The notes under the pieces are model-generated. The model had not been told where the DNA came from. It was given only the letters and a program-made list of their open reading frames with translations, and made no database searches. Source: Myxacorys almedinensis A (GTDB lineage: Bacteria; Cyanobacteriota; Cyanobacteriia; Leptolyngbyales; Leptolyngbyaceae). Taken from it: DNA of 64,000 bases. The stretch spans positions 1 through 64,000 of the forward strand of contig NZ_WVIE01000020.1 of NCBI RefSeq assembly GCF_010091945.1, given 5' to 3'. The position numbers were made by a program, and so were the translations under genes. Shown here in pieces: positions 23,422 to 26,489 of the stretch (positions are counted from its first letter, which is position 1; every line of letters begins with the position of its first letter).

Positions 23422-24273
23422 CTAAACTGACTCAGGCGGCAATACAACGCGCTTTGCTAAACCCAACACTCGTAAAACCTGAATTGCCCACCAGGTCATA
23501 TCAACTTCCCACCATTTCCATCCTGCCTTCGCCACATTTGGATAAGCGTGATGATTGTTGTGCCAGCCTTCACCATAGGTCAAAAGTGCTGCCCACCAAA
23601 GGTTGCGGGAGTTATCTTCTGAGTCAAACGTGCGATAGCCTCTCATGTGCGTTGCTGAATTAATCAGCCATGTACTGTGCCACAAAAACACGGCTCGCAC
23701 AATCAGACCGTAGAACACAAACGACCACCCCCCCAAACCATAAAGCACGACGCCCAACGGAAACTGTAACAGCAAGAAGTAACGATCGAGCCACCGATAG
23801 AAGCCATCTCGCTCTAGGTCGGGCGCAAATTTTTTGTACGAGTCGTAGTCGAAAAATTTTGGTCGGGGGTAGAGTACCCAGAGCATATGACTCCACCAAA
23901 ACCCCCGTTGTGCCGAGTAAGGATCGTTATCCGGATCTTCGGTGTGCAAGTGGTGCATCCGGTGCCCTGCGACCCAAAAAATTGGTCCGCCCTGCATGGC
24001 AAGTGCGCCAATAAATACGATGACATACTCCAACCATTTGGGAACCTGTAGGCTACGATGCGTCAGTAGGCGGTGATAGCCCAAACAAATCCCGATGCTT
24101 CCGGTTAGCCAATGGAGAGCGATCGCAACGCCCAGCGCAGACCACGAAAAGAACCACGGTGCTAACAAGATCAGAGCGTGAATTGTGCCAAAGAACACCA
24201 CATTTAGCCAGCGCAGTGACAACGTTGGCTCACCCACAGGAACGGTTTGATGAGAAATAGAAGTCATGGACAT
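23422..24273 (-). CDS. desC: Delta-9 acyl-lipid desaturase DesC
   Basis: A 283-residue membrane di-iron desaturase that introduces the first double bond into stearoyl or palmitoyl chains of membrane lipids. The three histidine boxes are intact: HRLLTH (HX4H), HRMHH (HX2HH) and HNNHH (HX2HH, in GEGWHNNHHAYPNVAKAGWKW). Four membrane segments are visible. The cyanobacterial DesC pattern (GPIFWVAGHRMHHLHTEDPD) is clear. The gene is divergent from a TetR-type regulator with two palindromes between them, so it may be regulated by that protein. Confidence 0.93.
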   Translation of the reverse strand: MSMTSISHQTVPVGEPTLSLRWLNVVFFGTIHALILLAPWFFSWSALGVAIALHWLTGSIGICLGYHRLLTHRSLQVPKWLEYVIVFIGALAMQGGPIFWVAGHRMHHLHTEDPDNDPYSAQRGFWWSHMLWVLYPRPKFFDYDSYKKFAPDLERDGFYRWLDRYFLLLQFPLGVVLYGLGGWSFVFYGLIVRAVFLWHSTWLINSATHMRGYRTFDSEDNSRNLWWAALLTYGEGWHNNHHAYPNVAKAGWKWWEVDMTWWAIQVLRVLGLAKRVVLPPESV

Positions 24274-24420
24274 CCTTTACTGAATGGATCAACTACTGAA
24301 TGGATACAACGCTCGTCAGCACCTCAATCAAGACTCTTAATCAACAGTACTGATCGCTCTCCTCTTCCACACCTCTTGATTGGACGCTGATAAAGAATCC
24401 AGATACAGTAGATGAGAAGA

Positions 24421-24437
24421 TGCAAGTGACGCTTGCA
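24421..24437. promoter_or_regulatory. Palindromic operator, site 1
   Basis: TGCAAGTGACGCTTGCA, a 17-bp inverted repeat with 8-base arms and one mismatch. It lies in the gap between desC and the TetR-like gene. It is almost identical to site 2, 47 bp downstream, which points to one shared DNA-binding protein. Confidence 0.7.
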
Positions 24438-24467
24438 GTTTTAGCTTAGCAATGACTTGTTTATTTA

Positions 24468-24484
24468 TGCAAGTGCCACTTGCA
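24468..24484. promoter_or_regulatory. Palindromic operator, site 2
   Basis: TGCAAGTGCCACTTGCA, a perfect 8+1+8 palindrome. Its end lies 8 bp before the ATG of the TetR-like gene, where a bound dimer would block transcription or translation of that gene. This is a typical position for TetR self-repression. Confidence 0.75.
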
Positions 24485-24492
24485 TTATTTCT

Positions 24493-25704
24493 ATGTCCAC
24501 TCCGCGAAACCCAACCCGGCAGCGCTTGATCGACGCAGCACTAGAACTCTTTGCCCATCAAGGCGTCACTGATACCACAACCAAACAGATTGCAGAATTG
24601 GCTGAAGTTAACGAAGTCACTCTATTTCGACAGTTTGGGAATAAGCACGGACTGCTCTTAGCAGTGATCAAAGAAGCAGCCGTATTTACGCACATCGGTC
24701 AGACCTTGGTGCAGCAAGCAAACCAAACGAGCAGCCTAGATGAGGCTCTCAAAGAGTATGCCAATGCTAGTCTACAAGCATTAGAGCGCGTTCCTGAAAT
24801 GGTGCGATCGGTGGTGGGTGAGGCAGGGCAATATCCGGCGGAAAATCGGGAAGCGCTAGGACGGGGTTTTACGCAAGCCAATCGGTATGTGGCGGAGTAT
24901 TTTGAGACCGTAATCGATCGGGGGCAACTCCATACTCATCTACCAGCAGATAAGCTCGCCAGCCTGCTCAATGGCATGTTGCTGGGCTATGCGGTGATCG
25001 AATTTACCAGCGAATTTCATGACCTGTGGCAAAATCGGGAAGATTTTCTCGATAATCTGGTGACGCTGTTTCTTCAGGGGGCAGTTTCTAACCAACCAAC
25101 TTACCACTCTCAGCCGATTCCAGCGCTAGTCGTGTCTGATTTACCGGCTAGCATTGTCCATGCGATTCTGCAACGAGCCAAGAAAGAAAGCCTGCAAGAC
25201 TATGCGCTGATGTATGTGCTCTTTGGTTCAGGATTAAGTTCTACGGAGGCTGTGGCGTTGGAGCGATCGCACTATTTTAGCGATCGCACTCAGCAATTTC
25301 TCCAAGTTGCGATCGACACCCCCCGCCAAGTTCCACTCAATCAGTGGATTATGGGCAAGCGATATGGCTCGTATCTTAAAAATCCCCTGATTCAATGGCT
25401 CAAAAGCCGTAAAGATGCTTATCCTGCCTTGTTTTTAAATGGAGACAGCCACCCCCTAACTGAAGTCGATCTTCAGCAGCAGTGGCAGAGGTTAACCAGC
25501 GGATTTACCACGCCAGAGGGTCAGCGCTTAACCATCGAGCAAGCCCAGCAAACGTGGTGTGTAGACCTTTTCCTGCGAGGCATGACGATCGAGCAGATGC
25601 AGATTCTCACGGGCTGGAAAGCCAGCCAACTCGAACCCTATGCTCAGCGATCAAGAGAGAAGGCAGCATTAGAACACGCAATTCGGCTCGATCAAAAAAG
25701 CTAA
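24493..25704 (+). CDS. TetR-type regulator fused to an inactive tyrosine-recombinase-like domain
   Basis: A 403-residue protein, about twice the usual TetR length. Residues 1-60 are a TetR DNA-binding domain (PTRQRLIDAALELFAHQG, TTKQIAELAEVNEVTLFRQF). Residues 60-200 form a helical ligand domain. From about residue 215 the sequence follows the integrase fold: YVLFGSGLSSTEAVALERSH resembles the LLYTGLRISELLALRW block, and a later block LTIEQAQQTW...LFLRGMTIEQMQILTGWK resembles the HxLRHTFA...LGH block, ending in LEPYAQRS. The Arg of the first block is Ser, and the His and Arg of the second are lost, while the Trp and Tyr positions remain, so it should not recombine DNA. The start is MSTPRNPTRQ. 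It is divergent from desC, with paired palindromes upstream. The target and ligand are unknown. Confidence 0.8.
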   Translation: MSTPRNPTRQRLIDAALELFAHQGVTDTTTKQIAELAEVNEVTLFRQFGNKHGLLLAVIKEAAVFTHIGQTLVQQANQTSSLDEALKEYANASLQALERVPEMVRSVVGEAGQYPAENREALGRGFTQANRYVAEYFETVIDRGQLHTHLPADKLASLLNGMLLGYAVIEFTSEFHDLWQNREDFLDNLVTLFLQGAVSNQPTYHSQPIPALVVSDLPASIVHAILQRAKKESLQDYALMYVLFGSGLSSTEAVALERSHYFSDRTQQFLQVAIDTPRQVPLNQWIMGKRYGSYLKNPLIQWLKSRKDAYPALFLNGDSHPLTEVDLQQQWQRLTSGFTTPEGQRLTIEQAQQTWCVDLFLRGMTIEQMQILTGWKASQLEPYAQRSREKAALEHAIRLDQKS

Positions 25705-25796: not shown

Positions 25797-26489
25797 CTAC
25801 AGCCCGGTAACTTGCTGACGCAACTCGCGGGAGAGCAGAACTCGGTTGACTGCATGAATAACGCCATTCGAGGCTTGAATATCTGCCTGCACAACGCTGC
25901 CATCGTTGACAATCACTCGCTCAGGAGTAACTGCGATCGCAACGCCCCCACCCAGCGTCTTCACCCCGCCTGACTGGAGATCGCTCGATCTATATTCCCC
26001 CGGAGCCACATGGTAGGCAAGAATGCGATTCAGCAATTGCCGATTTTGAGGCTGTAGCAGCTTCTCAAGAGTGCCAGATGGAAGGGCTGCAAAGGCTGCA
26101 TCAGTGGGTGCAAAGATTGTGTAGCGTCCACCACGGCTCTGAAGCGCGTCTGTAAGTCCAGCCGCTTCTACGATCCGCGCCAGGGTAGTGAATGAGCCAG
26201 CACTAGAGGCTTGTTGCAGCAATTCAGAGGCTGAGCTATCGCTGGTGTCTTGGGGAGTAGGTGTAGTAGGGCTTGGCTCAGCCGTGGGCGAGGGTAACGG
26301 AACTGGGGTCTCGTCTGGCGTTGGCGTTGTGGTTGGGGTTGGCGTTGTAGTCGGCTCTGGCGTTGGCGTTGTGGTTGGCGTTGTGGTTGGTGAGGGACTT
26401 TGGGCAACGACCGAGACAGCCGTTAGGGATATAAAAAATGCTGATAGAAAGACCAGCGATCGCGAACGGAAACTAACTAGATGACGCAT
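25797..26489 (-). CDS. Secreted fasciclin (FAS1) domain protein
   Basis: A 230-residue exported protein. A signal peptide (LVFLSAFFISLTAVSVVAQS) is followed by a Thr/Pro repeat linker (about residues 31-85; TPTTTPTPEPTTTPTPT) and one FAS1 domain (about 95-230). The FAS1 landmarks are FTTLARIVEAAGLTDALQ, YTIFAPTDAAFAALPSGTLE and LLNRILAYHVAPGEY, ending VNRVLLSREL. FAS1 domains mediate adhesion to cell-surface polymers. The linker may be O-glycosylated or span the wall. The Thr-Pro DNA is itself a short degenerate repeat. Confidence 0.92.
   Translation of the reverse strand: MRHLVSFRSRSLVFLSAFFISLTAVSVVAQSPSPTTTPTTTPTPEPTTTPTPTTTPTPDETPVPLPSPTAEPSPTTPTPQDTSDSSASELLQQASSAGSFTTLARIVEAAGLTDALQSRGGRYTIFAPTDAAFAALPSGTLEKLLQPQNRQLLNRILAYHVAPGEYRSSDLQSGGVKTLGGGVAIAVTPERVIVNDGSVVQADIQASNGVIHAVNRVLLSRELRQQVTGL

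Follow-up and report, generated by a model that had tools for sequence, protein, structure and literature searches.

Two short palindromes lie between a fatty-acid desaturase gene and a divergently transcribed regulator gene in Myxacorys almedinensis A, and this locus raises the question of which protein acts on them and what is thereby controlled. DesC introduces the first double bond into cyanobacterial membrane lipids. The window, that is, the whole stretch of 64,000 nucleotides analysed in the present study, contains the following features at this locus.

23422-24273, minus strand: desC, membrane acyl-lipid fatty-acid desaturase (delta-9 type by name; PF00487, 3.2e-22), divergent from the regulator gene.
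24421-24437, no strand: predicted operator O1, upstream site, 17-bp palindrome TGCAAGTGACGCTTGCA with 7/8 arm pairs (one mismatch).
24468-24484, no strand: predicted operator O2, regulator-proximal site, perfect 17-bp palindrome TGCAAGTGCCACTTGCA with 8/8 arm pairs.
24493-25704, plus strand: TetR-family regulator of 403 aa, with a TetR domain (residues ~1-200) fused to a tyrosine-recombinase-fold domain (~213-403).

Both palindromes are present as an earlier note had described them, with starts 47 bp apart, and the perfect one, which had been placed just before the regulator gene, ends 8 bases upstream of the ATG at 24493 in an intergenic gap of 219 bp. The exact pattern TGCAAGN5CTTGCA occurs at 3 places in the 4.96-Mb genome, 2 of which are at the desC/regulator locus, and with one mismatch allowed it occurs at 21 places, compared with 7 for the reversed control. 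At 3 mismatches, no enrichment was observed in the window (12 found against 8.6 expected, with at least 12 in 22 of 100 shuffles); therefore, the evidence consists of the exact pair and its conservation. The N-terminus of the regulator matches the TetR helix-turn-helix domain (PF00440, E-value 1.4e-13, 50.8 bits against a cut-off of 24), and the C-terminal half matches XerC and XerD models at 7.5e-5 and 7.9e-5, under their curated cut-offs. The list of open reading frames also offers an in-frame TTG start at 24457, although the ortholog alignment favours the ATG at 24493. The TTG start (window 24457-24492) would place O2 within the regulator reading frame, and at another locus (L200) the open frame likewise extends upstream across both sites. 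Downstream of desC and on the same strand lies a gene of the histone-deacetylase family (PF00850; 22344-23258, minus strand). A gene tail to tail with the regulator gene (25797-26489, minus strand) encodes a secreted-looking protein, identified by eye, that contains a repetitive region rich in proline and threonine and resembles fasciclin in its C-terminal part.

The palindromes are also present upstream of orthologous gene pairs. Among 42 genomes of the order to which the window belongs, 32 hold a regulator match at an E-value of 1e-60 or lower, two of them in pieces (G010 and G034). The desC gene is divergent in 29 of the 30 opened loci of the order, the exception lying at a contig end (L037), and all 29 divergent loci contain two sites with no more than 4 mismatches to TGCAAGTGNCACTTGCA. 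A profile of the site was derived from 29 loci in the family of the window and applied to 162 others at a threshold of 8 bits or more; after 14 duplicates were dropped, 178 unique loci remained from 192, and 148 of these were outside the training set. Two sites were detected in 147 of the 148, and dinucleotide shuffles (5 per test locus, for the 162 loci before deduplication) yielded two sites in 0/810 and one site in 6/810. Thus, the site pairs are not a product of chance. The two-site rate by protein identity to the window was 17/17 below 45%, 15/15 at 45-50%, 48/49 at 50-60% and 67/67 above 60%. Overall, both sites were found at 176 of the 178 unique loci, the exceptions being L037, cut by the contig end, and L087, which has one weaker site and its desC on another contig. 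The desC gene is likewise divergent to the regulator gene at 176 of the 178, an arrangement known for TetR proteins, in which a palindrome near the regulator's own gene adjoins a divergent target.

The geometry of the pair is narrow across these 176 loci, with start-to-start spacings of 46 bp in 55, 47 bp in 69 and 48 bp in 19, so that 124 loci fall at 46-47 bp and 165 at 44-52 bp, with extremes of 42 and 85 bp. The median distance from the end of O2 to the regulator start is 8 bp, and that from O1 to the desC start is about 117 bp. In three stretched gaps (L053, L090 and L203), the pair lies 83-135 bp from desC and 388-513 bp from the regulator gene, and the opposite arrangement was observed in L071, where the pair lies 399 bp from desC and 8 bp from the regulator gene. 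A single site was found in G214, a fusion genome outside the 178 loci. Named relatives, taken from the best 80 of at least 571 confirmed loci, include Trichocoleus, Phormidesmis, Nostoc, Fischerella, Brasilonema, Scytonema and Coleofasciculus.

The sites follow the regulator across genomes. In a survey of 388 genomes of the class, in which a regulator match at an E-value of 1e-30 or better was counted as positive (at least 9 of the 198 positives being of a TetR-only form), the exact pair was present in 143 of 198 regulator-positive genomes and absent from all 190 regulator-negative genomes, with a Fisher p of 1e-60 that ignores kinship and so overstates the certainty. The strict pair pattern is absent from 55 of the 198 positive genomes, and those opened among these 55 have broken contigs or sites that are diverged, solitary or more widely spaced. 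Within the order of the window, the degenerate site gave 73 matches, present in 32 of 32 regulator-positive genomes and in none of 10 regulator-negative genomes. Nor are these matches scattered at random across the genome, since 62 of the 73 lie in the desC/regulator promoter region and 11 elsewhere, and the reversed control gave 11 in all. A wider regulon was considered and rejected, because the 11 extra matches in 42 genomes equal the 11 of the reversed control and are at chance level except for two desC cases. Among 5 extra matches that were opened, two precede a second desC and three are inside genes, and two further ones are inside the regulator gene by coordinates (G006 and G007). These last two genomes, of one genus, contain operator-like palindromes TGCAAGTTAAACTTGCA and TGCAAGTCAAACTTGCA at an offset of 751 bp within the coding sequence of the regulator (G006:C90:78721-78737 and G007:C24:10971-10987).

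The sites also follow particular copies of desC. A search in 16 genomes returned 32 desC matches, 30 of them with a locus. In six regulator-positive genomes, the sites precede one desC each (L123, L124, L126, L130, L131 and L132, the second site of L132 being weak), and six other desC genes of those genomes are without sites (L142-L145 and L148 with 50-55% identity, L141 with 65%). Among the regulator-negative genomes, the 700 bp upstream contain a site with up to 3 mismatches at 0 of 18 desC loci in 10 genomes; a single 4-mismatch match is present upstream of desC at L137. Six of these 18 loci are close orthologs (67-74% identity), and in the desC gene tree, where distant desC paralogs form the other side and bootstrap support is not fully settled, these six are placed in at least three positions inside the regulated clade. 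The simplest reading of this tree is a joint loss of regulator and operators on more than one occasion; the alternative is a transfer of desC alone. In G097, the regulator and desC are on separate contigs, and desC still carries a pair of sites spaced by 47 bp, one with 1 and the other with 3 mismatches, together with a third, weaker match inside desC; the regulator's own region there contains one weaker site (L087). In G029 and G030, of one genus, the sole extra match lies 95 and 96 bp, respectively, before a second desC at another locus, which is 70% and 69% identical to the desC of the window.

The C-terminal half of the regulator was modelled with more confidence than the TetR half, with mean pLDDT by block of 84-96 for residues 211-400 and of 56-81 for residues 1-200 (76.8 for the whole, pTM 0.49). 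Residues 213-402 of the model share the catalytic-domain fold of tyrosine recombinases, aligning with XerA (5hxy) at Z 20.8 over 174 residues with an rmsd of 3.6; the same half matches XerH at Z 17.5, and its profile matches the XerC-like 4a8e at an E-value of 7.2e-11. Over the first 200 residues, TetR chains match near Z 16, including Bacillus halodurans FadR at Z 16.5. Unlike XerA and XerH, however, the present regulator has mostly lost the catalytic residues. The tyrosine-recombinase set (R, K, H-x-x-R, H/W, Y) is not complete in the window protein, which has Ser, Glu and Gln at R-I, H-II and R-II, the columns being taken from one profile alignment with 4a8e, where the tyrosine is displaced by one column and the lysine is not tabulated. 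Among 111 orthologs, the R-I Arg is found in 7, the H-II His in 0 (with a His in the next column in 2) and the R-II Arg in 25, whereas the tyrosine is retained in 90 and replaced by Phe, Leu or Cys in 21. The catalytic loss is not uniform, as both arginines and the tyrosine are found in 5 of the 111. Other residues (R278, N283, G288, R290, N297, P298, W331, T354 and W355) are each kept in 109-111 of the 111, a strong conservation suggesting that the domain is constrained for something, which, judging from these alignments, is probably not recombination. In 19 genomes, a match to the C-terminal half was found in 12, one each and at the regulator locus, and no free-standing copy of the domain was found.

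Orthologs with the TetR domain only were identified in nine genomes (G045, G069, G082, G105, G115, G126, G135, G244 and G064), in which no match to the C-terminal half was present in the stretch fetched; short cases split between frames (G299, G235 and G304) or at contig ends (G239 and G284) were left out. Each of the nine lies divergently to desC and has the same operator. One site is present in seven of the nine, six of these seven being of one genus, and two sites are present in G135 and G064. In the desC tree, the nine loci are found in three places, and the well-supported branches force at least two changes. At L275-L285 and L309, all TetR-only, the recombinase-fold domain has been lost (or gained) repeatedly and the operator is unchanged. 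By this comparison of loci, the recombinase-fold half is not needed for operator choice. A link between the C-terminal domain and the presence of two operators is suggestive, being drawn from few independent events.

Candidate promoter elements are located between and beside the palindromes.

24442-24452, plus strand: conserved inter-operator element TAGCTTAGCAA, family form TAGCCTAACAA, interpreted as the regulator -10 (TAnnnT).
24405-24410, minus strand: possible desC -10 hexamer TACTGT (low confidence), picked by eye in the family alignment.

In the column profile of 176 loci, the TAGCCTAACAA-like element is sharpest at a fixed distance from O2. A TAnnnT at -27 to -23 from O2 was found in 113 of 176 loci, compared with a mean of 21 and a maximum of 77 in control windows, and the left half of O1 lies at the -35 distance from it. 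A rival TAnnnT is present at the right edge of O1 in 88 of the 176 loci, so the assignment of the regulator -10 is not certain. A core promoter with O1 on the -35 side and O2 after the start point would explain the fixed spacing of the pair. The desC -10 does not fall at one position: a TAnnnT at -15 to -9 from O1 was found in 47 of 176 loci (controls: mean 11, maximum 23), with further peaks left of O1 at -7 (39 loci) and -2 (30 loci), and a scan for the sigma-70 consensus returned no promoter in the desC/regulator intergenic region. O1 may overlap both the regulator -35 region and the desC promoter. The inter-operator element was also considered as a contact for the recombinase-fold domain; this idea is weakened by the TetR-only loci, which by eye hold a similar element, and a promoter element is the simpler explanation.

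Herein, we propose that O1 and O2 are operators of the regulator, through which it would act on both genes, and we put the probability of this reading at about 0.86. The suggestion of the earlier note that a TetR protein acts on its own gene and on the divergent desC is in this way strongly supported by comparative genomics. A regulator dimer would bind each palindrome. O1 would then cover the stretch probably occupied by RNA polymerase at the two divergent promoters, and O2 the beginning of the regulator transcript; the leftward desC promoter would start just left of O1. Because of this placement over promoter regions, binding most likely represses both the regulator gene and desC, silencing the former and reducing the latter. 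A ligand would release the regulator; by analogy, this would be an acyl compound that signals how saturated the lipids are. The repressive mode, assumed from the habit of the family, is probable, though less firmly so than the assignment of the operators. The recombinase-fold half probably serves as a protein-contact module, for example in joining dimers on the two operators. A more specific version, in which the catalysis-lost fold bridges TetR dimers on O1 and O2 (46-47 bp) into a complex shutting both promoters, is tentative and on balance doubtful: one operator in 7/9 TetR-only genomes versus two in 176/178 fusion loci is in line with it, and the two sites of two TetR-only genomes and the single site of the fusion genome G214 speak against it.

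The sense of the control on desC admits a variant within the proposed reading, namely that the regulator represses itself from O2, which is usually close to the regulator start, and activates desC from O1, whose median distance of about 117 bp from the desC start is a possible activator position. TetR-family proteins mostly repress, however, and the possible overlap of O1 with promoter elements argues weakly in the same direction; activation is therefore rather unlikely. Another transcription factor might bind the sites, with the regulator merely a neighbour. This is very improbable when the pair is found in 0/190 regulator-less genomes and at none of the 18 desC loci of regulator-less relatives.

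Two further readings dispense with transcription factor binding. The palindromes could form RNA hairpins, acting as a terminator or attenuator, and both are indeed terminator-like stems followed by T (2 found against 0.1 expected in shuffles). They nevertheless precede the gene start, are absent where the regulator is absent, and are conserved in sequence (the TGCAAG half-site) and not only in pairing, and we give this explanation scant credence. The inverted repeats could instead be a recombination site for the tyrosine-recombinase half, flanking a switchable segment, as the fold of that half, the inversion of the repeats and the 5/111 orthologs with both arginines and the tyrosine would allow. 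This reading is the least probable of all and was rejected, because the catalytic residues are missing (H-II His in 0/111, R-I in 7/111, R-II in 25/111, Tyr replaced in 21/111), the gene order is constant in 176/176 loci with desC beside the regulator, and TetR-only orthologs keep the same site.

A regulator acting through O1 and O2 would have counterparts in known systems. DesT, the regulator of the desBC desaturase operon of Pseudomonas aeruginosa, belongs to the TetR family, and to our knowledge neither DesT nor MadR carries a recombinase-fold domain. As in the present locus, a regulator is tied to fatty-acid desaturase genes in the case of DesT, which is proteobacterial, unlike the present regulator. 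In excerpts from PMC8872791, DesT is described as distinguishing saturated from unsaturated long-chain acyl-CoA, and the mycobacterial MadR as a TetR-family repressor of desA1 and desA2 that binds their promoters as a dimer. According to the same excerpts, the genes adjacent to madR are unchanged in a madR mutant and MadR acts on mycolic-acid desaturases, whereas the predicted target of the present regulator adjoins it. The present regulator may control desaturase genes in the manner of DesT and MadR: the predicted operators precede desC, and also a second desC in two genomes. On the basis of the target gene and the analogy with DesT and MadR, as far as the excerpts from PMC8872791 describe them, an acyl signal is likely as the ligand. 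Bacillus FadR, a TetR protein with acyl-CoA bound in solved structures, ranks near the top of the Foldseek structural matches to the TetR half, although FadR controls fatty-acid degradation and many TetR proteins match this half equally well; the ligand can therefore not be deduced from the match. Desaturases of the DesC1 and DesC2 types are distinguished in the excerpts from PMC4390868, and the desC of the window may be of either type. No description of the present regulator, its domain make-up or its operator was found in the open-access literature searched, which included excerpts from PMC4390868, PMC2593844, PMC3264485 and PMC8872791. TetR-family control of desaturases is thus already known from DesT and MadR, and the present regulator, fusion and operator were not met in this open-access literature, to the extent of these excerpts.

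The sites are conserved widely among the cyanobacteria, and genomes that lack the regulator lack them too. This protein therefore very probably controls the degree of unsaturation of the cell membrane, as far as genome comparison can indicate. A regulator match is present in 198 of the 388 sampled genomes of the class, and in the window's order the sites are found almost only at the desC/regulator locus. A dedicated regulator of this kind provides a directly testable handle on how the step of the first double bond is set. Moreover, the absence of the recombinase-fold domain from a few lineages with an unchanged operator constitutes a natural experiment on what this domain, with its catalytic residues mostly gone, contributes to a repressor. 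If the bridging of the two operators were true, an old DNA-rearranging fold would now be part of a membrane-lipid switch in cyanobacteria.
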